The notes under the pieces were generated by a model, which worked only from the letters and a program-made list of their open reading frames with translations, was not told where the DNA came from and did no database searches. 64,000 nucleotides of DNA from an uncultured Marivita sp. (lineage in GTDB: Bacteria > Pseudomonadota > Alphaproteobacteria > Rhodobacterales > Rhodobacteraceae): NCBI RefSeq assembly GCF_947488135.1, contig NZ_CANKYW010000002.1:620001-684000 (forward strand). The letters are read 5' to 3'. The position numbers and the translations under genes were made by a program. Below are positions 1,461 to 11,848 of this stretch, piece by piece (the first letter of the stretch is position 1; every line of letters begins with the position of its first letter).

Positions 1461-2900
1461 CTAGGCTGGATGTCGCGGATCGAAATCGGTGAATCCGAAC
1501 ATCATGTAATCTCTCGGATAGACCTCTCGGCAGAGCCGTTCGAGAGAGGCGTCGTAGATCGATGCGAGGCGGTCTTGCAATGGGTCTGCGCTCGCGGGAA
1601 GGTCCGGCATTTCGTCCAGCCCTATCCATCTTCCAAGCTGCTGAAGATCGGATGAAAGCGTGTCTTCCCTGAACAAGTGGTCTGGCAGGCAAAACTCGGA
1701 CATGCCTTGCAGGCACGCAACTTGACTGGCCCAATGGGTATCGACCCGGATACTGGTCTGACCGTTCAGATTTGATTTCAGGAAATGCAGGAATTTTTCG
1801 AAAGCCGCGCGGTGCGCGCGCAGATCGTAGCCCGGGTCCTCGGGTGCCTCGGGCAAATCGAAGTCATGAAAGCGCGCCAGCTGTTGTCGGATCTTGGTGA
1901 AACTTCCCGGGCCGGTGCCAAGGATCTTGTCGCAGAACGCAGCGTGCGCGCGCAAGAGCGGATGGCGCAAGACGGTGAAGCGTCGATGACCGGGGTGATC
2001 CTGCATCCAGCCGCGTAGGGTCTTCTGATTGAATTTGGAGATCAGATCGGCCCCGTTCCCTTCCACCAACGACATCCATCGCAGCACCTGATCTTCCAGT
2101 GCGGAGCGGATCGGCATGAACAGAAGCGGGAGGCTTTGACAGGCGACATAGGACGGGACGACCGGCCCGCGACGCGGCTCGAAATTCGGCGTCCGTGAAA
2201 GGTCGAACCGATCGAGGCTACGCAATGCAGCTTCCATCTGGTCGTAATTGACGACCTTCTCGGACAGGGCCTGCGGGTTTTGCGGCTTCAGATTGCTCTG
2301 GAAGGCATCAGGTTCAACCTCGGCACCGAGGAAGCGGGCGAGACCGCTCAGGACCTCGGTGTCATGCAGATCGTCGTAGCCGATATAGAACGCTGTTTGG
2401 CCGGTGACCTGAAGGGCGCGCATGATCTCCATCTGGAAGCTTTGCATGCTGCCGGTGTGACGCTCGAATTCGTGCAGATCGAAATGCGCCTTGGCGTCCT
2501 TGCGGTTCTGGACATTGGTGAGTTTCCACTGATCCGTTGCCCGCGCGATCTTGAGGCTGATGTAGCTGTCCAGCGGGTTGCGGGTGAGCACGATCTTCGC
2601 GCAACGTGGGTCCGACAGGATCGACGCCAGAATGCGGGGGTCGTGATCATGAAAATACCGGAATCCGCCAAGGCCGTCGGTCTCTTGACGAATGGCGCGA
2701 AGTAGGCGGTCCGGATTGTCCTCACGCTGGCGCTGGGTCACACCGAGAATATCGGTGCGGTTAGGATACCCGATGAAATTCGAGTTGAAGGCTTCGCCGT
2801 GGCTTGTGATGCCGTCGATCTGGTTAAGGTAGTCTTCCAGCAAATTGGACCCGGTCCGCATCTCGGCGAAAACGACGAAGAAATCGAAGGGTCCGGTCAC
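1461..2900 (-). CDS. Sulfotransferase with Stf0-like N-terminal half and Sulfotransfer_2-like C-terminal half
   Basis: Residues about 1-250 resemble a PAPS-dependent sulfotransferase of the Stf0/NodH type. The early motif AEMRTGSNLLEDYL matches the 5'-phosphosulfate loop, and KIVLTRNPLDSYISLKIA matches the 3'-phosphate-binding segment. The C-terminal half carries a second such segment (RRFTVLRHPLLRAHAAF), then an FCLPDHLFREDTLSSDLQQLG stretch and a YPRDYMMFGF tail, as in the Sulfotransfer_2 family. I see no second phosphosulfate loop, so this half may be non-catalytic. The 479-residue length is long for one sulfotransferase domain. The start is GTG, 3 bases after the GT14 stop, so translation is probably coupled. 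Last gene of the glycosyltransferase run; a carbohydrate acceptor is inferred from that context only. Confidence 0.8.
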   Translation of the reverse strand: MTGPFDFFVVFAEMRTGSNLLEDYLNQIDGITSHGEAFNSNFIGYPNRTDILGVTQRQREDNPDRLLRAIRQETDGLGGFRYFHDHDPRILASILSDPRCAKIVLTRNPLDSYISLKIARATDQWKLTNVQNRKDAKAHFDLHEFERHTGSMQSFQMEIMRALQVTGQTAFYIGYDDLHDTEVLSGLARFLGAEVEPDAFQSNLKPQNPQALSEKVVNYDQMEAALRSLDRFDLSRTPNFEPRRGPVVPSYVACQSLPLLFMPIRSALEDQVLRWMSLVEGNGADLISKFNQKTLRGWMQDHPGHRRFTVLRHPLLRAHAAFCDKILGTGPGSFTKIRQQLARFHDFDLPEAPEDPGYDLRAHRAAFEKFLHFLKSNLNGQTSIRVDTHWASQVACLQGMSEFCLPDHLFREDTLSSDLQQLGRWIGLDEMPDLPASADPLQDRLASIYDASLERLCREVYPRDYMMFGFTDFDPRHPA

Positions 2901-2903
2901 GGC

Positions 2904-4610
2904 TTACTTCTTCACGAGATAGGGCCGGGGGCGCGGCGCATCGCGGGATGGGCCCTGAGCAATGGGATCGGCCGGGAAATCACCCATCAGGTACGGGTGC
3001 ATGCCCTGGTTCTTGAGGTTCTGAAGGAACTGGCCAAAACCCGTCAGATCGACCATCAATGGGGCTTCGGTCAGGCGCCTGTTGGGTTGCACCCCGATTT
3101 CATCGACGATGACCTGGATGGCCTCCATCGGGCTCTCCATGAACTCCGCCATGGTCCAGATGCGTTTGCGGCACGTGGCGTATGGCGACCTGAGCGCATC
3201 CAGCATCTCGGTTTCGATCTTTTGCAGCTGCGCCGCCTCGCGCCTCAGATCGGTAAAACTTCGGTTTGATTGGAACAGCGGGATCGCCCAGGCGCCGCTG
3301 ATGACCGACATCTGAGCATTTGGGTCTTTTGCAATATCCCAGATCACGTGTCGGGTGCTGTTTGGGCCAAGCTGGAAGCACTGCCGTTCGCCACGGGTGT
3401 TCCAAAGCAGGTTGGTCAGAAACATCTTGGGATCGTAGTCTCGCAACACCGGGTTGTCCGACAACGCGCCGTTCATGAAGCTTTGGCCCTCTGCGAAATG
3501 CGCCCGATCCGGCGCGAACAGATGACCATGAACGCGCGCGCCTGTCACCTGCGCGAGCCACGGTTCGAAATCCGTGAAAAGCTCCGTGAAGCCTTGGAAC
3601 ACTGAATACTTGGCCGCGGTCACGCCGTTTTCCCAGTCTTCGTTGGGGAACCGGCTTTGCATGTAAAGCCCGGGACGCCCGCGCGTGCGGCGGTCCACAG
3701 CTTTGGCAAAAATGCGGTCGATCTTGCCCGGATTGGGCTCCTGCAAACTAAGCTCACCGGGTTTCGGGTTCAGAAAAGTCTCGTACAGCCGGTCCGCGTT
3801 GTGCCAGATTTTTCGGGCGACAAAGCAATCCGAGCGGCGCAGCAACTGAAGATGGTCGTCATAGAAAATGTGCGGTTTGCCTTGGAAGTCGAACTTGGAA
3901 AGCGTCAATGACCGACTGATGACGTTTGTGGAATACAGGCGGGTAAGGGTCTGGAAGTAGCTTTCGTCCGGGATCCAGACGTGACGGAAGTACTTGTCGT
4001 AGACCTTGCGTTTCGGGTCTTCGAGGATTGAGGACAATGTCTGACGTGTGAGGCACCACCATTGGCTACCCATGTGCGGCGTCAGGCCCTCTGGGATCTT
4101 GCGTTTGTAACCGACCTTACGCTGCAATTCGACGAAGCGGTCGAACAGATACCTGTTGCGCCGCCAAGAGAAAGGGAAGCGCAGCGTAAATCGTTCCTCG
4201 TCCAGTCCACCGATTGTCCAAGGCACATCGGCGGTGGTGGCGCTTTCGATATGGTCGGTGCGCGGGCGCGCCTTGAGGTAGTCGATCAACTCCTGCACCG
4301 GGCGCAGAGGGAGGCACGAGCCCGAGGTGAGGTAGACGTGGCTCACCTCTTCGAACTCGGCCAGCATCAGTTCGCTGGCATCTTGGCTTGCGGCGACAAG
4401 CCCCCACGTGCCCCAATCACAGCGATGTCTGCGCGAAAAGCGGATCAGGGGATCGTCGCTGAGACGTTCGGTGAAGATCTTGTAACGCTTGTTCGACACG
4501 ATCTGATCGACATGGATCACAACCGGACATCCAGCCTTTGTCCAGTGGCGCGCGACCTGTTCGGCGCGGTGCAGCGCCGTGTGGGCCAGCATGATGATCC
4601 CGATGCTCAT
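2904..4610 (-). CDS. GT14-type (core-2/I-branching) beta-1,6-N-acetylglucosaminyltransferase-like protein with a long C-terminal domain
   Basis: Residues about 1-260 match the Branch/GT14 fold. The start SIGIIMLAHTALHRAEQVA, the VIHVDQ element and the HVYLTSGSCLPLRP segment correspond to conserved GT14 blocks. A further region of about 300 residues follows, probably of the DUF5927/DUF5928 type that accompanies this domain in Rhodobacteraceae (from memory). No signal peptide or membrane helix is visible, so it is expected to act in the cytoplasm on a nucleotide-sugar donor. The ATG overlaps the upstream GT2 stop by 4 bases (ATGA), and the sulfotransferase follows 3 bases downstream. Donor and acceptor cannot be read from the sequence. 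Confidence 0.8.
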   Translation of the reverse strand: MSIGIIMLAHTALHRAEQVARHWTKAGCPVVIHVDQIVSNKRYKIFTERLSDDPLIRFSRRHRCDWGTWGLVAASQDASELMLAEFEEVSHVYLTSGSCLPLRPVQELIDYLKARPRTDHIESATTADVPWTIGGLDEERFTLRFPFSWRRNRYLFDRFVELQRKVGYKRKIPEGLTPHMGSQWWCLTRQTLSSILEDPKRKVYDKYFRHVWIPDESYFQTLTRLYSTNVISRSLTLSKFDFQGKPHIFYDDHLQLLRRSDCFVARKIWHNADRLYETFLNPKPGELSLQEPNPGKIDRIFAKAVDRRTRGRPGLYMQSRFPNEDWENGVTAAKYSVFQGFTELFTDFEPWLAQVTGARVHGHLFAPDRAHFAEGQSFMNGALSDNPVLRDYDPKMFLTNLLWNTRGERQCFQLGPNSTRHVIWDIAKDPNAQMSVISGAWAIPLFQSNRSFTDLRREAAQLQKIETEMLDALRSPYATCRKRIWTMAEFMESPMEAIQVIVDEIGVQPNRRLTEAPLMVDLTGFGQFLQNLKNQGMHPYLMGDFPADPIAQGPSRDAPRPRPYLVKK

Positions 4611-5617
4611 GCCCAGTTGCCCATGGACATCAGGCCGAGGATCTCAAGTTGGCGCCAGTTGATGTATTTTTCCGACCACTTGCACCAAAGCTCGGGATTG
4701 TCCTGAAGAGCAGAGGCGTAGGCGACGTATTCTTGGCTGCCGGCATAGTGTTCGCGGCGCTTCAGCTCTTCCATCGCCTTTTCATTGAACGTGCTGATGA
4801 ACTTGGTGTGCAACAGCGCGCCGGACGCTTTTTCTCCACCCCATTCGTCGTAGACGTAGTTGAGACCGCGCGGCAGAAGCATGTGGGTCGAGCTGGCGTA
4901 GGCGTAGCGGTGATGCCACTTCACCAGCGGGATCTTGTTCAGTGCAGGGGCCGCTTCGGGCCGGTCGGCGAAGAACACCCGCGCGCGTGGGCCGCCCTGG
5001 ATCCAGAGATTGCCCAAAAGGTGATTGCGCTTGAGCGTGTAATTCCCGGAGTCGAACCACGATGCAATTTCCAGCGGGTCCTGTCCGGCCTGATATGGCA
5101 CTGCGTCGATCCGGCCCTTGGGATACATATCCAGCAACATCGCGCTGAAGGATCGGATCGACGACGCGTCAAGCCAGTCCGTGAGCGCGGGCAAGGGACG
5201 CGAGTCGCAGAACGGGTAAACGAAGAATTCGTCGGGATCGACGGTGAGGCACCAGTGATCGTGGCCGTATTTGCGCAGAAGCCAGTTCATCCAGTCCATT
5301 CCGAACCGGGACCGTTTGTAGCTTTTGCGCGAATGCCAGACCGACACATCGGGTTGTTGCGCCAGCAGTTCGGCGGTGCCATCCGTACTGTCGTTGTCGA
5401 CGAAAAAGAAATGGGACACCCCCATCTCTCTGTAATACTTCAGGAAATAGGGAAGGCGAACACCCTCGTTTCGCAGGGTGCAGAACAGTAGAATGTCGGT
5501 CTTGCGGATGCGGTCGGTGCGATTTGAAACGGGTTTCAATTCGCGGCGTTTGCGGAACGCGCGAAGCCTCCAGCGTTTGCGCTGGAGTCGTAACCCATAT
5601 CGTTGCACCACTCCCAA
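4607..5617 (-). CDS. Glycosyltransferase family 2 (Glyco_tranf_2_4 type)
   Basis: The 336-residue protein has a GT-A core. ILLFCTLRNEGVRLPYFLKYY opens the domain, VDNDSTDGTAELL (about residues 73-85) is the nucleotide-sugar site, and VDPDEFF (about 126-132) is the metal-binding acidic motif. A basic N-terminal tail of about 35 residues precedes the domain. No membrane helix is apparent. The start is uncertain: the most upstream option is TTG at 5617, with GTG codons at 5611 and 5608, and no clean ribosome site distinguishes them. The 3' end overlaps the GT14 start by 4 bases, which argues for translational coupling. Sugar specificity cannot be inferred. Confidence 0.82.
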   Translation of the reverse strand: MGVVQRYGLRLQRKRWRLRAFRKRRELKPVSNRTDRIRKTDILLFCTLRNEGVRLPYFLKYYREMGVSHFFFVDNDSTDGTAELLAQQPDVSVWHSRKSYKRSRFGMDWMNWLLRKYGHDHWCLTVDPDEFFVYPFCDSRPLPALTDWLDASSIRSFSAMLLDMYPKGRIDAVPYQAGQDPLEIASWFDSGNYTLKRNHLLGNLWIQGGPRARVFFADRPEAAPALNKIPLVKWHHRYAYASSTHMLLPRGLNYVYDEWGGEKASGALLHTKFISTFNEKAMEELKRREHYAGSQEYVAYASALQDNPELWCKWSEKYINWRQLEILGLMSMGNWA

Positions 5618-5660
5618 GAGCCAGCTGCCTGTGTCTGTGGTCGCACGTGTCGCGTGGGTA

Positions 5661-6878
5661 TCAAAGAAGTGTAAACAGCTTGTTGAAGTGTGCCTGCCAC
5701 GTTGGAGCCGAAAACGACCCCGAGCCTATGTGTTCACCGCTTTGTTCCCAGCGTCTCTGCGCCAGTTGCTCGATCTTATTGCGCCAAACGTAGCAATCTG
5801 ATTCGTCTGCGTAAATAGGGTAATCGTCCAAGAGTTCCTTGAAGACCGGCAAGGGGTTGCAGATCAGCGGCACACCGAGCAGCGCGGCCTCCATCGCCGG
5901 GTATCCGAACCCTTCGGCCAAGCTTGGAAAGAGCAGTCCGCTGCTGCGCTGCAAAAGGGCCCACATCGCGGCGTCGTCAAGGTCGGGCAATTCGTGCACA
6001 TTGGGTGGCCTGCGGTCCAGCCGTTCGAAGACGTCTGCGTTGAGCCATCCGCGCCGCCCGCAAAGGATCAGGTGCGGGTCGTTCGGGCCCGAAAAGTCCG
6101 ACCAGAGATCAAGCAAGAAACCGATATTCTTTCGGGGCTCGATCGTGCCAATCGCAACGAAGTAGGGGCGGTCTTCCCAAGATCCGGAAGGCGCGGTTCC
6201 GATGCGCATGTCGGGCAATCCGGGCAGGAGATTGTGCACATTTTCTTGAGAAAGATGTGTTGCGCGGTCCAGGATCCGCGAACGGGTGTCCTGAGAATTG
6301 CAAAGAACCGTGTCCGCGTGACGATCCACGCGGGCAAAGAAGCGCTTGAAGGCAAGCCTGGATTTCTGCGTTTGCGTGTCAGGCCAGTCCAGCGGGATCG
6401 TATCATGCAGGTAGATGACGTTGCGCGCTGCGTTGCAGGCGCGCAAAGCGTGGATGATGCGATCATTGAAGTTTATTTGTCCGACATTGAAATACACCGC
6501 CCCGTCGGGAAGGTGACGTTTTAGCATCTTCGTCAAACGTGACGGAATGGCGCGATCCAGCGCAATTTTCCGTAAACCGCTTTCCGTTCGCCCTCGCGCC
6601 GCATCGGCCTTGCGAGACACCTTCGAGATCAGATCAGCGCTCTGCCAGATCGGCGTATCGCAGTGTGCGCGCAGGGCGGCGCAGCCGTCTTTATCGAGCA
6701 GCAGAAAGCCAAGCTTGGTCCGCACGAGCCCGAAGAGCGGCGCCGGGTCCTGGATCAGATGGTCGATATAGGCCCGTTCGATCCTGTCGATCCCGGTCGG
6801 ACGTTGCCGCGCGCGACTGACCGTTCTTGTGACATCCAAAAGATGCGCCGGGGCAGGGCTATTCGCGGTAGTCTGCAA
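5661..6878 (-). CDS. Glycosyltransferase family 4 (GT-B, family 1-like)
   Basis: The C-terminal Rossmann half carries the GT4 signature: FVAIGTIEPRKNIGFLLDLW, then LLFPSLAEGFGYPAMEAALLG with the E-x7-E pattern (EGFGYPAME), then a GVPLICNPLPVFKELL donor-site segment. The N-terminal half contains RPTGIDRIERAYIDHL, common in rhodobacterial homologues that begin near LLDVTR. There is no ATG in the first part of the frame. I chose TTG at 6878, preceded by GGTGG, giving 405 residues and a 20-base overlap with the end of galE; TTG at 6905 is the alternative. It is predicted cytosolic or membrane-peripheral and adds one sugar during surface-glycan assembly. Confidence 0.8.
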   Translation of the reverse strand: MQTTANSPAPAHLLDVTRTVSRARQRPTGIDRIERAYIDHLIQDPAPLFGLVRTKLGFLLLDKDGCAALRAHCDTPIWQSADLISKVSRKADAARGRTESGLRKIALDRAIPSRLTKMLKRHLPDGAVYFNVGQINFNDRIIHALRACNAARNVIYLHDTIPLDWPDTQTQKSRLAFKRFFARVDRHADTVLCNSQDTRSRILDRATHLSQENVHNLLPGLPDMRIGTAPSGSWEDRPYFVAIGTIEPRKNIGFLLDLWSDFSGPNDPHLILCGRRGWLNADVFERLDRRPPNVHELPDLDDAAMWALLQRSSGLLFPSLAEGFGYPAMEAALLGVPLICNPLPVFKELLDDYPIYADESDCYVWRNKIEQLAQRRWEQSGEHIGSGSFSAPTWQAHFNKLFTLL

Positions 6879-7839
6879 CTTGATGCCACCGCCATGCGTC
6901 CTCAATCATCTGGTGCATGGTTGATTGCCGCGGTTGCCAATTAAGCTCCTCCTCGGCCCGAGTGGAGCCGGAGACGAGTTTCACCGCATCTCCGGCCCGC
7001 CGGTCACCAAGGGTGGTCGGAACGTCGCGATTGGTAACGCGCCGAGCGGAGTCAATCACCTCGCGCACGGAAAATCCCGATCCCGTGCCAAGGTTGAACA
7101 CCTCATTACCCTTGCCCTCCATCAGCCAGCGGAGACCGAGAACATGCGCATCCACGAGGTCGGAAACATGCACGTAATCCCGAATACAGGTGCCGTCTTC
7201 GGTCGGATAATCCGTGCCGTAGATGGTCACACCATCCCGAATACCGGCCACGGCATCCAGGACGATCGGAATGAGATGCGTTTCCGGGCGATGGAATTCG
7301 CCAACCTCTGCCTCGGGGTCAGCCCCGGCGACGTTGAAGTAGCGAAAGATGACGTGTCGCAAGCCATGGGTCACGCCGAAATCGTGAAGGATACGCTCCA
7401 CCGTCAGTTTAGATGCCCCATACGCGTTGAGCGGTTCCTGCGGCGACGATTCATCCAGAACCACGTTGTCTTGGTCGCCGTACGTTGCGCAGGTCGACGA
7501 AAACACGAAATCAAGACAGCCATGTTCGACGGCCGCTTCGATGAGGTTGAGCGATCCCAACACGTTATTGCGCCAGTAAAGGCCGGGATTGCTCATCGCC
7601 TCATCGACGCGGCTTAATGCTGCGAAATGCAGGATGGCCTTGGGATCGTGTTCCTGAAAGACGCGTGCGATGCTGGATTTGTCGGTCAGATCGCCTTCGA
7701 CGTAAGGCCCGAAGCGCACGGCATCGCGCCACCCGGTCGAAAAATTGTCGAAGGTGATGGGGGTGAAACCGGCCCGCGCGAGCGCCTTACAGGCGTGCGA
7801 TCCGATATAGCCCGCGCCGCCCGTAACAAGAATGTCCAT
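6859..7839 (-). CDS. galE: UDP-glucose 4-epimerase GalE
   Basis: This is a full-length 326-residue short-chain dehydrogenase-type epimerase. The NAD-binding GGAGYIGSH lies at residues 7-15. The catalytic dyad is Y140 and K144 in NAYGASKLTVE, with SSTCATYG at about 114-121. The C-terminal part reads NLGTGSGFSVREVID, typical of GalE. It interconverts UDP-glucose and UDP-galactose in the cytoplasm. Its ATG lies 3 bases after the galU stop, so the pair probably form one translational unit supplying UDP-Glc and UDP-Gal to the glycosyltransferases downstream. A UDP-GlcNAc epimerase activity cannot be excluded from sequence alone. Confidence 0.93.
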   Translation of the reverse strand: MDILVTGGAGYIGSHACKALARAGFTPITFDNFSTGWRDAVRFGPYVEGDLTDKSSIARVFQEHDPKAILHFAALSRVDEAMSNPGLYWRNNVLGSLNLIEAAVEHGCLDFVFSSTCATYGDQDNVVLDESSPQEPLNAYGASKLTVERILHDFGVTHGLRHVIFRYFNVAGADPEAEVGEFHRPETHLIPIVLDAVAGIRDGVTIYGTDYPTEDGTCIRDYVHVSDLVDAHVLGLRWLMEGKGNEVFNLGTGSGFSVREVIDSARRVTNRDVPTTLGDRRAGDAVKLVSGSTRAEEELNWQPRQSTMHQMIEDAWRWHQVADYRE

Positions 7840-7842
7840 GCT

Positions 7843-8733
7843 TTACTCTGCCGCGTTGTCGATCTGCATCACTGAATCAAGGAAGCTGCGAAGGTCGTCC
7901 TTGAGATCGTCGCGCGCCAGGCCGAAGGCAACAGTCGCCTGCAAAAAGCCGGCTTTCGACCCGCAGTCGAACCGTTGGCCGTTGAACCGGTAGCCATAAA
8001 CCCCGGTCCCGTCGATTTCCTGCGCGATTGCGTCGGTCAGTTGAATCTCGCCCCCTGCACCGGTCTTGAGCTTGTTGAGGTTTTTCAGAACCTTTGGATC
8101 AAGGATGTAGCGGCCAATTACGGCGAGGTTCGATGGCGCGTCTTCGACCTTGGGTTTTTCGACCATGCCCTTGACCGAAACCATCGCACCCATGTCTTCC
8201 TTAACGTCAAGGATGCCGTAGCTCGACGTCTTGTTTTTCGGGACTTCCATCGCCGCAACCATGTTGCCACCGGTTTCCTCGTAGGCTTCGACCATCTGTT
8301 GCAGGCATGGCTTTTCGGCAGAGATCACGTCGTCGGGCAACATGACGGCGAAGGGTTCGTTCCCGATCAGACGGCGCGCGCACCAGACCGCGTGCCCCAG
8401 CCCCAGCGCTTTGTGCTGCCGCATATAGGCAATCGCACCGCTTTCCATGTTCGTCGATTTGAGATCTTCGAGAATGGCGGTTTTGCCCTTTTTACGCAGT
8501 TCTTGCTCGAGAATGGGTGACTCGTCGAAATAATCCTCGAGCGCGCTTTTCCCGCGCGAGGTGATGAAGATGAATTCCTTGATCCCGGCAGCTCGGGCTT
8601 CGTCGATGGCGTACTGCACCAACGGGCGATCCACGAGGGTCATGATCTCTTTCGGGACGGACTTCGTAGCAGGCAGAAAGCGTGTTCCAAGCCCGGCAAC
8701 CGGGAAGACGGCTTTTGTCACTTTTCTACGCAT
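7843..8733 (-). CDS. galU: UTP--glucose-1-phosphate uridylyltransferase GalU
   Basis: The 296-residue protein begins MRRKVTKAVFPVAGLGTRFL; the GLGTRFLPATKSVPKEIM block is the nucleotidyltransferase signature. Other conserved pieces are VDRPLVQYAIDEA, LGLGHAVWCAR and VEKPKVEDAPSNLAVIGRYIL. The ATG at 8733 is chosen over an upstream in-frame codon because it is preceded by AAGGAG with 7 bases of spacing. It makes UDP-glucose from UTP and glucose 1-phosphate. It is the first gene of the leftward glycan run (galU-galE-GT4-GT2-GT14-sulfotransferase), with a comparatively AT-rich 115-bp region upstream in which a promoter is likely but not clearly readable. Confidence 0.95.
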   Translation of the reverse strand: MRRKVTKAVFPVAGLGTRFLPATKSVPKEIMTLVDRPLVQYAIDEARAAGIKEFIFITSRGKSALEDYFDESPILEQELRKKGKTAILEDLKSTNMESGAIAYMRQHKALGLGHAVWCARRLIGNEPFAVMLPDDVISAEKPCLQQMVEAYEETGGNMVAAMEVPKNKTSSYGILDVKEDMGAMVSVKGMVEKPKVEDAPSNLAVIGRYILDPKVLKNLNKLKTGAGGEIQLTDAIAQEIDGTGVYGYRFNGQRFDCGSKAGFLQATVAFGLARDDLKDDLRSFLDSVMQIDNAAE

Positions 8734-8848
8734 CGGGCTGCTCCTTATGTGGTCGCGTCTTACTGCGCGTTTCCGTTTATGCCACAATATTTGCTTCAGG
8801 TGTATGACTTAACTGCGGAATTAATACGGTCTTTTGTCGGAATCCCGC

Positions 8849-10087
8849 TCATTGCCCAATCAATGATCCCTCTTTCGCGCGTATTCGGTCCAAGCGTTCC
8901 AGCGTTTTCCGGACGCGCTGTTCCAGCGTGCTTTTTTGGATCAATGGCTCATCACGATGTTCGCGACCGAAGATCCCACCGGTGTGCAGCCAATAGCCAT
9001 CACTGGTGAATTCGACACGGTGATAGCGGGGTGTCGGTCGGTAATCGAAGACAGTCACCCTGTGGCCCTGTCCGACCAGCGCCCTTGCTTTTTCCGGCGT
9101 GGTTTCGCGTCCGGTCCGCGACGAAATCAGATAGATGTCGTTATTCGGTGACTGGATATCGCGCGAAGAGAATGTGCTTCTCTGCGAAAACGTCGGCTCG
9201 GGAACGCCTGATCGTCCAGCCCCGTCTTCGTACCCATCCGTCAATTCCTGGATCAACCGATAGGCCCGATCCGGCGTAAGAGCCCCGCGCACCATATGAT
9301 TGATGATCCAGCTTCGCCGGTCCTTGAGAAACGCTGCGCGCGCGGCATATCTGTGGGCTATTTCACAATGTTTGCGGTGAAAAATCGCGGCGGAGGCTGC
9401 GATTTCAAAGACGCGGCGCGGGGTTCGTTCCTCGTCGCGATACCGGCTCGGCCCGCTGGCATGATGCACGACCGCTTGGGGGACATAGGCAGTCCGCCCG
9501 CCGCTTTTGGTTATGCGATAGCTCAGATCGGTTTCGTCGAGGTAAAACGCAAGCCGTTCATCAAATCCACCGTGCGAGACAATAACCTCCCGCCGGATCG
9601 CCATGTTCGTTCCGTGCAGTCTTGGGTGGCGGTCGCCGTCGGGGTCGATGATCACCCCTTTTAATTCGGCACCGTCCACCGGATAGGTTTGGCCCGCCGC
9701 CGAAACCCGCGCTGCGGCGTGTTGCACCGTGATCCCGTTGCGGCCAAGGGTTGTGCCTCCGGCCTGCGCGACAGAAGAGTTTTCAAACGCCGAAGAAAGA
9801 TGCCAAAGCCAGGTCGGCTCGGGCACGGCATCATCGTCGATGAACGCAATGATATCGCCAGCCGCGGCGTCGACGCCTTTGTTCCTGGCGGCAGAGATAT
9901 TCGCACGATCAGCGGTTAAGACGCGTTCGACCTTCATTTCCTGCGCAATCTGCGCGCCATCTGAACAGGCGACCACGACCACTTCAAAGCGGGTATAATC
10001 CAGTTGGCCGATGGCGCGCAGGCATTGCTTCAACCAGTCGGGCCTGTTCCAACTGACCACAACAACGCTGACCGCAGGCGACGCCAT
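8849..10087 (-). CDS. Glycosyltransferase family 2 with a C-terminal extension
   Basis: The 412-residue protein has a GT-A domain at roughly residues 5-260: VSVVVVSWNRPDWLKQCL, then SAARNKGVDAAAGDIIAFIDDDAVPE (DDD at about 84-86), then HGTNMAIRREV and FYLDETDLSYR, the usual acceptor-side acidic motif. The last ~90 residues (from about NNDIYLISSR, with KARALVGQGHRVTVF) look like the beginning of a GT-B domain. The ATG at 10087 is 8 bases after the cysQ stop. A longer reading would run into cysQ, so the short start is preferred. It probably shares a transcript with cysQ and belongs to the polysaccharide block. Confidence 0.8.
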   Translation of the reverse strand: MASPAVSVVVVSWNRPDWLKQCLRAIGQLDYTRFEVVVVACSDGAQIAQEMKVERVLTADRANISAARNKGVDAAAGDIIAFIDDDAVPEPTWLWHLSSAFENSSVAQAGGTTLGRNGITVQHAAARVSAAGQTYPVDGAELKGVIIDPDGDRHPRLHGTNMAIRREVIVSHGGFDERLAFYLDETDLSYRITKSGGRTAYVPQAVVHHASGPSRYRDEERTPRRVFEIAASAAIFHRKHCEIAHRYAARAAFLKDRRSWIINHMVRGALTPDRAYRLIQELTDGYEDGAGRSGVPEPTFSQRSTFSSRDIQSPNNDIYLISSRTGRETTPEKARALVGQGHRVTVFDYRPTPRYHRVEFTSDGYWLHTGGIFGREHRDEPLIQKSTLEQRVRKTLERLDRIRAKEGSLIGQ

Positions 10088-10095
10088 CGCGCGTC

Positions 10096-10899
10096 TCAGA
10101 CAGGCTGGAGGTCGATGCCCGGAGCGGTTGCGACGAAGAACGGGTTGGCGAAAGTCGGTTTTCCGTAGGTCAGTGTCTGCAAGTCGTCCAGCCGCAGGAC
10201 CTTGCCGCCTGCGCCATTGAGAACTGCGTGACCCGCTGCGGTGTCCCACTCCATCGTGCGACCCAGCCGCGGGTAAAAATCCGCCTCTCCGGTGGCGACG
10301 AGGCAGAATTTGAGTGAAGATCCCGCGCTTTTGCTGTCCTTGATGGAATACCTGTTGATGTAATCGTCGGTCGCCTGGTCACGGTGTGATTTCGACGCAA
10401 CCACCATCAGCGCGTCGGACTTCGGAACCGAAACGTGGATGAGTGTGACGGCGCCGATCGTGTTTTTGTCAAAGCTTCCGGTTTCTTCCACGCTTTGGCC
10501 GGATGCATCCGTGAAGAACAGCCGTTCCTTTGCTGGCGCGTAGACTACGCCGCGCGTCGGAACGCCGTCTTCGACCAGCGCGATATTCACTGTGAAGTCG
10601 CCGCGCCTGTGGATGAACTCCTTGGTGCCGTCCAGCGGATCGACGATCAAAAAGTCGCGGACTTGCAGATCGTGCGTGTCGGATTGTTCTTCCGTTACCA
10701 ATGCGATGTCGGGGAACGCGTCACGCAAACCCGCCGAGATCAGCGCATCCGCGGCCTCGTCCGCTTCCGTGACGGGACTGTCATCCGATTTCGAGCGCAC
10801 GTCGAAATCATCGGCGCGGTAGATTTCCATGATCTGGTGACCTGCCTCGAGCGCGAGACGGCGCATTTCGTGCATCAGTGCATCATAGTCCATGGCCAT
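10096..10899 (-). CDS. cysQ: CysQ, 3'(2'),5'-bisphosphate nucleotidase
   Basis: The 267-residue protein belongs to the FIG (inositol-phosphatase) superfamily. VTEE at about 68-71 and DPLDGTKEFI at 87-96 are the metal-binding motifs, and MEWDTAAGHAVL is the C-terminal one. The DPLDGTKEF form is typical of CysQ rather than of inositol monophosphatase. Known role: hydrolysis of 3'-phosphoadenosine 5'-phosphate (PAP), the product left by PAPS-dependent sulfotransferases and PAPS reductase. The ATG at 10899 is preceded by GAGGACAG; a second ATG at 10893 is possible. Its position at the head of a block that ends in a sulfotransferase fits PAP clearance. Confidence 0.9.
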   Translation of the reverse strand: MAMDYDALMHEMRRLALEAGHQIMEIYRADDFDVRSKSDDSPVTEADEAADALISAGLRDAFPDIALVTEEQSDTHDLQVRDFLIVDPLDGTKEFIHRRGDFTVNIALVEDGVPTRGVVYAPAKERLFFTDASGQSVEETGSFDKNTIGAVTLIHVSVPKSDALMVVASKSHRDQATDDYINRYSIKDSKSAGSSLKFCLVATGEADFYPRLGRTMEWDTAAGHAVLNGAGGKVLRLDDLQTLTYGKPTFANPFFVATAPGIDLQPV

Positions 10900-11017
10900 C
10901 TGTCCTCACGTCGATTGATTTGAAAGCGCGCCTCTCTTATCATTGTCTTAACAATTGTTCGCAACAACAGTCAGAAAAACTGACGGAAAAACGCGGACCG
11001 AGGCAGAGGCAGACCAC

Positions 11018-11848
11018 ATGTTTCAGAAAACGGCTCCGATGAACCGGACGGCTTCGGCCGTAAACATCGCCGAACTCATCTATCACAACACGGTCCGCGC
11101 CATTCGCAAAACGCATGGAAACGCGTTCATGTCGATCGCGGTCAGTGTCTTTCAGTCCCTTTTGTTCGTTCTGTTTTTCTACGTCATGTTCACGGTCATG
11201 GGGCTCAAGGGGTTGGCGCTTCGTGGCGATTTCGTGATTTTTCTGCTTACCGGGATCTTCATGTTCATGACCCACAACAAGGCTGTGGGCGCCGTCTTGG
11301 GAAGCGAAGGACCGGCCAGTCCGATGATGCAACACGCGCCGATGAACACGTTTATTTCCATCGTGTCCGGAATGCTGGCGACGCTGTACATTCAGACGTT
11401 GGCTGTCGCGTTCATCCTCTTCGTCTATGATGTCGCGATAAACCCTTACGTCCTCCGCGAGATCGTGGATCCCGTTCCGGTGATGGGCATGTTCCTGTTG
11501 TCATGGTTTTCGGGCGGGGCGGTCGGCCTTGTGTTTCTCGCGCTGAAGCCGTGGTTTCCGGGCCTGACCGGAACACTCTCGACCCTTTACAAGCGTGCGA
11601 ACATGATTGCGTCGGGCAAGATGTTCGTTGCGAACTCTCTCCCCTCGTTCATGATCTCGATGTTCGACTGGAACCCGCTCTTCCACACAATTGATCAGGC
11701 GCGGGGATTTGCATTCATCAACTATGTTCCGCGAAACACCAATTGGGAATACGTCGTGTATCTGTCGCTGACGCTCGTCATGATCGGGTTGATGGGGGAA
11801 TTCTATACCCGCAAGCACGCCTCTGCATCCTGGTCGGCGCGGCGTTGA
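11018..11848 (+). CDS. ABC-2 type transporter permease, KpsM/capsule-export-like
   Basis: The 276-residue protein has about six hydrophobic segments after a short cytoplasmic N-terminus: SIAVSVFQSLLFVLFFYVMF, FVIFLLTGIFMFM, a SGMLATLYIQTLAVAFILFVY segment, MGMFLLSWFSGGAVGLVF, a stretch around SLPSFMISMFDWNPLFHTID, and YVVYLSLTLVMIG near the end. SLPSFMISMFDWNPLFH resembles the ABC-2 export motif where the substrate leaves. In this family the permease pairs with a separate ATPase to export polysaccharide or lipid-linked glycan. I see no ATPase gene beside it. The start at 11018 has a GAGGC sequence upstream; ATG at 10955 or 11039 are alternatives. Divergent from cysQ, it ends next to the convergent alkB stop. 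Confidence 0.72.
   Translation: MFQKTAPMNRTASAVNIAELIYHNTVRAIRKTHGNAFMSIAVSVFQSLLFVLFFYVMFTVMGLKGLALRGDFVIFLLTGIFMFMTHNKAVGAVLGSEGPASPMMQHAPMNTFISIVSGMLATLYIQTLAVAFILFVYDVAINPYVLREIVDPVPVMGMFLLSWFSGGAVGLVFLALKPWFPGLTGTLSTLYKRANMIASGKMFVANSLPSFMISMFDWNPLFHTIDQARGFAFINYVPRNTNWEYVVYLSLTLVMIGLMGEFYTRKHASASWSARR

Follow-up and report, generated by a model that had tools for sequence, protein, structure and literature searches.

We analysed a 64,000-nucleotide window of a 4.47-Mb genome (contig C2) that among named organisms is closest to Marivita, and found at positions 1461-10899 a minus-strand block of eight genes that is probably the assembly and sulfation locus of a capsule-type surface glycan. 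Export of this glycan would be of the ATP-binding cassette (ABC)-dependent, group 2/3-like kind, through KpsM, KpsT and KpsE, and the locus would be part of the common gene set of Rhodobacteraceae. Read from 10899 down to 1461, the block consists of cysQ, a GT2 glycosyltransferase (GT2a), galU, galE, a GT4 glycosyltransferase, a second GT2 of family PF13704 (GT2b), a GT14 glycosyltransferase fused to DUF5927, and a sulfotransferase; a gene for a KpsM-type permease stands beside cysQ. We observed a gene content, motifs, a conserved gene order and a co-occurrence across genomes that point to this assignment. Judged from sequence, the product would be sulfated, polymeric and exported by this KpsM.

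Eight linked genes conserved across Rhodobacteraceae

An earlier note, made from the sequence alone, had placed eight genes on one strand here, and this was borne out: all are present on the minus strand, and family profiles agree with their identities (Table 1). The note also described the genes as joined mostly by 3-bp gaps or 4-bp overlaps. This holds only in part: 3-bp gaps occur at two of the seven junctions (sulfotransferase/GT14 and galE/galU) and a 4-bp overlap at one (GT14/GT2), whereas the remaining four differ, comprising a gap of 43 bp, one of about 8 bp with GT2a read from the ATG at 10087, one of 61-115 bp depending on the galU start, and an overlap of GT4 and galE that depends on the start codon. 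The genes hpf and ptsN are convergent to the block. A promoter scan returned 2 matches against 3.2 expected, and a tRNA search of the window found none. We regard the block as more than a chance grouping because the same gene order recurs in relatives.

We sampled 101 genomes, comprising the genome itself, 60 others of Rhodobacteraceae and 40 others of the class; relatives share ancestry, and the genome counts are not independent events. GT14-DUF5927 and the sulfotransferase were both found in 56 of the 61 family genomes, and the same five genomes (G024, G030, G033, G045 and G049), two of them less than 90% complete, showed neither. In all 56 block genomes the sulfotransferase lies directly behind GT14 on the same contig, no more than 234 bp away. 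Outside the family there was one weak match for each protein (GT14 in G098; sulfotransferase in G063), and among 385 genomes drawn over the class DUF5927 occurred in five, all Rhodobacteraceae and including the present genome. A KpsM orthologue was detected in 55 of the 56 block genomes, on the same contig and 4.0-7.3 kb from GT14 in 48 of these 55; in the genome without it, G044, GT14 is cut at the contig start. KpsE was likewise found in 55 of 56 (as fragments in G003 and G010; none in G013), and the KpsC/KpsS domain (PF05159) in 56 of 56. Among the five block-free family genomes, one had a full KpsC/KpsS set (G024), one a weak match (G033) and three none; the figure for the association of KpsC/KpsS with the block, 9.6e-6, carries no correction for common descent, and we do not take it as proof.

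Gene order was compared in the best 80 of at least 577 relatives, of which 60 loci are longer than 21 kb; block carriers among the relatives include Marivita geojedonensis DPG-138 (L078) and Marivita hallyeonensis DSM 29431 (L079). In these 60 the outer genes were found nearly throughout (kpsM 59, cysQ 59, sulfotransferase 58, GT14 60, GT2b 60), followed by galU (56), galE (48), GT2a (45) and GT4 (42); the flanking genes ptsN, hpf and dnaK were found in 54, 54 and 52. By analogy, such nearly fixed outer genes around variable middle transferases resemble the way in which capsule loci combine constant with variable parts. Across the 80 loci, GT2b (PF13704) was present in every one, with more than one GT2b-type match in 21, and cysQ and kpsM were divergent in 69 of the 69 loci where both were found. 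One locus, L142, lacks both kpsM and cysQ, and of 20 loci from other genera, 18 have both. The earlier note had proposed linkage in relatives as a check of its pathway; the sulfotransferase turned out to be linked to GT14 in every block-bearing family genome and was present in 78 of the 80 named loci.

Probable export through a scattered set of Kps proteins

A profile built from 12 KpsM orthologues found as its best match in the PDB 8tsh_C, the KpsM of the KpsMT-KpsE capsule exporter (2e-16). The other three matches at E values up to 1 were TarG (1.8e-5) and the transport permeases 6oih and 6m96 (about 1e-4; up to 1.4e-4). As a single protein, KpsM had no Pfam match, ABC2_membrane included, and its NCBIfam match to VexB (1.6e-6) fell under the cut-off. 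An orphan KpsT-KpsE pair lies elsewhere in the genome, so that KpsM, KpsT and KpsE each match best the corresponding subunit of one exporter, for which 8tsh and 8tsi are cryo-EM complex entries in the source as excerpted (PMC11041684). A further cluster elsewhere in the genome, L056, encodes KpsC, OPX and KpsS (PF05159 in two genes; PF02563 and SLBB_2 in OPX).

The separation of KpsM from KpsT-KpsE recurs. In the surroundings of the core KpsE from 19 other genomes (7.4-11 kb each), KpsT precedes KpsE in 19 of 19, and two KpsM queries at E 1e-6 found no KpsM in those stretches. In G020, a deeply branching member of the family whose GT14 is 41% identical, KpsT-KpsE is found on the same contig, some 2.7 kb past the sulfotransferase match, and KpsM, block and KpsT-KpsE form one stretch. 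This linkage is the most direct tie between the block and the KpsT-KpsE exporter. The block of G020 is also extended (L051:12798-18812) by a gene of the phosphoglucomutase/phosphomannomutase family, genes for KpsE and KpsT, and another epimerase-like gene. Next to the orphan KpsT of the present genome, a gene at L067:12153-13490 has no Pfam match and a start that reads like a sulfotransferase phosphosulfate loop.

From the family match, the co-occurrence and the one linked genome, KpsM-KpsT-KpsE would be the exporter of the block glycan. According to the part of the literature account available (PMC12220298), chain building in ABC-dependent pathways takes place in the cytoplasm and requires neither Wzx nor Wzy, and family profile searches gave no Wzx or Wzy match among the eight genes. 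Since such pathways do without these proteins, a capsule-type polymer appears likelier than a lone oligosaccharide. The earlier note had seen no flippase and had considered an oligosaccharide product. The absence of an export gene is not supported, given the KpsM-type permease, which the note does not mention, paired divergently with cysQ wherever both were found, and the KpsT, KpsE, KpsC, KpsS and OPX homologues elsewhere in the genome. Its proposal that the block builds, branches and sulfates a glycan is supported as far as a glycan is assembled and probably sulfated.

We propose the following sequence of steps. By family assignment, GalU and GalE would provide UDP-glucose and UDP-galactose, from which the two GT2 enzymes, GT4 and GT14 would build a branched chain in the cytoplasm. 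The primer would most likely be 3-deoxy-D-manno-octulosonic acid (Kdo)-phosphatidylglycerol, made by the KpsS and KpsC homologues. The Stf0/NodH-like sulfotransferase would then act late, tailoring the chain with sulfate taken from 3'-phosphoadenosine 5'-phosphosulfate (PAPS), with PAPS coming from a Sat-CysC fusion on another contig and the by-product 3'-phosphoadenosine 5'-phosphate (PAP) being removed by CysQ, as their families suggest. Finally, the divergent KpsM, the orphan KpsT, KpsE and the OPX protein would export the glycan.

Table 1. Genes of the block, the adjoining divergent region with KpsM, and the orphan KpsT-KpsE pair. Positions refer to the window unless a locus is named; ORF, open reading frame.
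Feature	Position	Strand	Profile matches and remarks
Two-domain sulfotransferase, 479 residues	1461..2900	-	PF03567 over cut-off, residues 300-470; PF00685 just under cut-off, residues 11-215
GT14 glycosyltransferase (residues 1-about 290) fused to DUF5927 (Pfam 266-567)	2904..4610	-	PF02485 4.5e-16; PF19349 1.2e-153
GT2 glycosyltransferase (GT2b)	4607..5617	-	PF13704
GT4 glycosyltransferase, uncertain start	5661..6905	-	PF00534 9.7e-12
galE, UDP-glucose 4-epimerase	6859..7839	-	TIGR01179 410 bits, cut-off 262
galU, UTP-glucose-1-phosphate uridylyltransferase	7843..8787	-	TIGR01099 345 bits, cut-off 327; internal ATG at 8733
GT2 glycosyltransferase (GT2a)	8849..10087	-	PF13641 4.7e-20; ORF open to 10249, ATG at 10087 fits operon
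cysQ, 3'(2'),5'-bisphosphate nucleotidase	10096..10899	-	TIGR01331 261 bits, cut-off 229
Divergent intergenic region cysQ/kpsM	10900..11017	none	One weak sigma-70-like match at 10915-10943 (+), not above chance
KpsM-type ABC permease	11018..11848	+	ORF open from 10955, ATG at 11018; divergent from cysQ
KpsT, orphan pair	L067:11310-11969		Best PDB match 8tsi_A, 3e-39
KpsE, orphan pair	L067:9698-11362		Best PDB match 8tsh_E, 5e-24; under TIGR01010 cut-off

Sulfotransferase, PAPS supply and the GT14-DUF5927 protein

In the sulfotransferase, residues R15-T16-G17-S18, E36, R107 and S115 of the N-domain do not vary among the 66 sequences of the alignment, which comprises the window protein and 65 of the 75 sulfotransferases recovered from the 80 loci after removal of near-duplicates, a truncated sequence and one other. 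We take these to be the 5'-phosphosulfate loop, the base and the 3'-phosphate residues, as in Stf0-type enzymes. By sequence, the sole PDB match at E up to 1 was the lipopolysaccharide (LPS) sulfotransferase NodH (1.8e-9, residues 7-152). A structure model (mean pLDDT 88.8, pTM 0.57) fits sulfotransferases over residues 2-242, with Stf0 first (Z 12.6; root-mean-square deviation (rmsd) 3.8; 193 aligned) and 4gox tied (Z 12.0), and Foldseek placed an Alicyclobacillus sulfotransferase on top (5e-5); the rows of the structural comparison spanned residues 4-242 and thus barely covered the C-domain. The C-domain is akin to stand-alone Sulfotransfer_2 proteins (hhalign 95.7%, 9e-9), lacks the first PAPS-type motif and does not conserve the serine of the second. 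The N-domain is classed as Stf0/NodH-like with intact PAPS-type motifs, and the C-domain as a degenerate relative of Sulfotransfer_2.

The Sat-CysC fusion, a 617-residue protein joining ATP sulfurylase and adenosine 5'-phosphosulfate (APS) kinase (PF01747 and PF01583), is encoded outside the block on contig C6 and, to judge by its domains, can supply PAPS. A strong APS kinase match was obtained in 53 of the 56 block genomes; G035 and G048 hold pieces of the Sat part running off a contig. Two relatives' loci (L128:11698-12202 and L135:11698-12202) lack only the sulfotransferase, with GT14 followed 43 bp on by ptsN, which speaks for sulfation as a late tailoring step.

The GT14 domain matched PF02485 at 59.6 bits (cut-off 23.4). 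In the model, its first 290 residues superpose on the core-2 N-acetylglucosamine (GlcNAc) transferase 3otk (Z 20.3, rmsd 3.4, 244 aligned) and on human xylosyltransferase 1 (Z 17.9, rmsd 3.6, 244 aligned), a resemblance of predicted fold that cannot reveal sugar specificity. D215-E216 is invariant in 19 of 19 sequences and again in 62 of 62 (the window and 61 of the 80 loci); the Glu of this PDE motif may correspond to the core-2 catalytic Glu. The model of the whole protein is moderate (mean pLDDT 73.3, pTM 0.49), with residues 235-321 mostly below 50 and blocks of ten over 331-540 at 66-92. The PDB fold-search matches listed for it all fell on the GT14 domain and are thus uninformative on DUF5927.

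Predicted elements of DUF5927, read by hand, follow the same order as those of the sulfotransferase N-domain except for one four-residue helix, and the first nine are similarly spaced. The element-order score of this pair was 96.4, which none of 60 shuffles reached (62.9 ± 7.3), and DUF5927 against the sulfotransferase C-domain gave no signal (61.9; reached by 24 of 60). As controls, two GT14-domain pairs gave 75.6 and 72.2, values that 1 and 2 of the 60 shuffles, respectively, attained, and the N-domain against the C-domain scored 82.1 (0 of 60). Because the GT14-domain pairs also beat their shuffle means and the C-/N-domain pair reached 82.1, the shuffle test alone is no proof. With hhalign, DUF5927 aligned with the N-domain in the same register at P 0.0029, the best among 15 DUF5927 comparisons; whole-protein profile comparisons gave P 0.062 and 0.011, and DUF5928 against the N-domain gave P 0.02. 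Pfam searches at E up to 10 returned no sulfotransferase match for DUF5927 or DUF5928 and, beyond DUF5927 itself, only a chance-level match to NRho. PAPS-binding residues are not visible at the aligned DUF5927 positions, the underlying alignment being weak. A likeness of DUF5927 to the sulfotransferase fold without PAPS residues is suggestive only.

We put forward tentatively, and regard as doubtful, a model in which DUF5927, fused to a GT14 branching enzyme, is a sulfotransferase-fold domain that has lost its PAPS site and that, together with the degenerate C-domain, would hold the acceptor chain so that sulfate is placed only on fresh branches, making GT14-DUF5927 and the sulfotransferase a pair for branching and sulfation; GT14-DUF5928 and a Sulfotransfer_2 protein might then form a second, similarly designed paralogous pair. 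This second GT14, with DUF5928, is encoded at L053:2307-4844, about 15-18 kb before the window start and some 18 kb from the block GT14, and a canonical Sulfotransfer_2 gene is convergent with it. Among 20 further loci of GT14-DUF5928, all had GT14 and 16 had a Sulfotransfer_2 gene within the same 7 kb. No function has been described for DUF5927, and the term was absent from the open-licence literature searched; the locus gives the domain a likely cellular setting.

Alternative readings and comparison with known systems

Several observations weigh against a sulfated capsule exported by this KpsM. The genome has a second KpsM-KpsE-KpsT set on contig C14 (L066:8807-11540; named by reading, with ABC2_membrane and ABC_tran matched), and a sugar-1-phosphate transferase gene (Bac_transf, L053:16098-16787) lies about 3 kb upstream of the window, so that other routes exist. 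GT14 and kpsM are on separate contigs in 7 of 55 genomes, and the block loci of G026 and G053 hold neither cysQ nor kpsM. G024 (82% complete) has KpsC/KpsS without the block, PF05159 also occurs in 4 of the 40 genomes outside the family, and the Kps genes may serve another glycan. The match to GT14 is reported to contain a stop in two genomes (G004 and G051), as is the match to the sulfotransferase in two others (G001 and G041). G043 (98% complete) has the block and KpsC/KpsS, but neither Sat-CysC nor a strong APS kinase match turned up in it. The two loci without a sulfotransferase, L128 and L135, nevertheless keep cysQ, which speaks against cysQ serving the block sulfotransferase alone and leaves the tie between these two genes weaker than the earlier note had claimed. 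As a separate observation, the second KpsM-KpsE-KpsT set lies near genes that read like plasmid replication/partition, dTDP-sugar and glycosyltransferase genes (no profile test).

The block might instead make a sulfated glycan that modifies LPS, or an O-antigen, with KpsM as a Wzm-like permease. It holds no initiating transferase, and the only solved relative that the sulfotransferase N-domain has by sequence at E up to 1 is an LPS sulfotransferase, both of which would suit this alternative; yet the KpsM profile prefers the capsule permease to TarG, 6oih and 6m96, the orphan KpsT adjoins KpsE, a capsule-type co-polymerase, in all 19 further genomes, and every block genome carries the KpsC/KpsS domain. 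We consider an LPS or O-antigen product unlikely. Export by Wzx/Wzy, started by the upstream Bac_transf protein and with the KpsM adjacency being coincidental, seems very unlikely: a second OPX gene, on contig C8, would fit it as well, whereas none of the eight genes matches Wzx or Wzy and kpsM diverges from cysQ in 69 of 69 loci and accompanies the block in 55 of 56 genomes. Compatible with either route, the glycan could be real while the sulfotransferase-like protein acts on a small molecule, on a lipid or otherwise, and cysQ belongs to general sulfur metabolism. The retention of cysQ in L128 and L135, the lack of a Sat-CysC match in G043 and the other sulfotransferase gene of this genome (Sulfotransfer_2) point that way; the invariant N-domain motifs and the constant position of the sulfotransferase behind GT14 argue against it, and we think it quite unlikely.

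If the block is indeed the assembly and sulfation locus of a KpsMTE-exported capsule, a single old locus for a sulfated surface glycan is common to most Rhodobacteraceae. The family abounds in the sea, and such a locus would matter for how cells attach, for the adsorption of phages and for the sulfated polysaccharides of the marine pool. Searches for compact capsule clusters would overlook it, perhaps because its exporter is scattered.

Among the matches listed from the open-licence literature, no paper dealt with the block, with DUF5927 or with a sulfated capsule of Rhodobacteraceae. Rhodobacter capsulatus is a related bacterium. For its capsule genes rcc01081-01086, the excerpted source describes a cluster that is absent from strain 37b4, with wzc/wzb/wza listed alongside (PMC10218006). 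These genes and the tailspike TspA (PMC13420450) were considered in connection with the gene transfer agent receptor and rejected as a different cluster, set apart by description only in the parts of the papers available. A phage MD18 screen in Phaeobacter concerns the type IV pilus, and the terms glycosyltransferase, capsul, polysaccharide and sulf are absent from the text as excerpted (PMC7643831); the corresponding parts of papers on R. sphaeroides CenKR (PMC9275681) and Nautella (PMC3230580) offered nothing usable on the block.

What is new here is the family-wide locus and the split exporter; the principle is already known. The sulfotransferase N-domain has its fold and PAPS-type motifs in common with Stf0 of Mycobacterium and the NodH LPS sulfotransferases, and differs from them in the second, degenerate sulfotransferase domain fused behind it. 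The subunits of the KpsMT-KpsE exporter, as covered in the excerpted report (PMC11041684), are the best PDB matches, whereas the genes are split here, with KpsM at the block and KpsT-KpsE elsewhere. In Cobetia marina KMM 1449, for which a sulfated capsule structure has been reported, the available part of the account describes kpsETMD, kpsSC, several glycosyltransferases, a sulfotransferase and cysQ (PMC11766843), and an ABC exporter, KpsS/KpsC, glycosyltransferases, a sulfotransferase and cysQ are likewise present here. The Cobetia genes, cysNC and cysD among them, form a single cluster of about 70, whereas the block, KpsTE, KpsC-OPX-KpsS and Sat-CysC occupy four separate sites here; GT14-DUF5927 and the two-domain sulfotransferase were not seen in that partial account, and family-wide conservation is a feature of the present locus, unlike the Cobetia cluster (PMC11766843). 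The sulfated capsule of Vibrio sp. KMM 8419 likewise involves, in the excerpted description, an ABC transporter, UDP-glucose supply, glycosyltransferases, PAPS genes and sulfotransferases, in an 80-gene, strain-variable cluster on one chromosome, whereas the present block is compact and mostly fixed in place (PMC11641403). In both the Cobetia and the Vibrio systems PAPS synthesis genes lie within the same cluster; here Sat-CysC lies outside it, and we therefore describe the block as working like these sulfated capsule clusters and not as being one of them.

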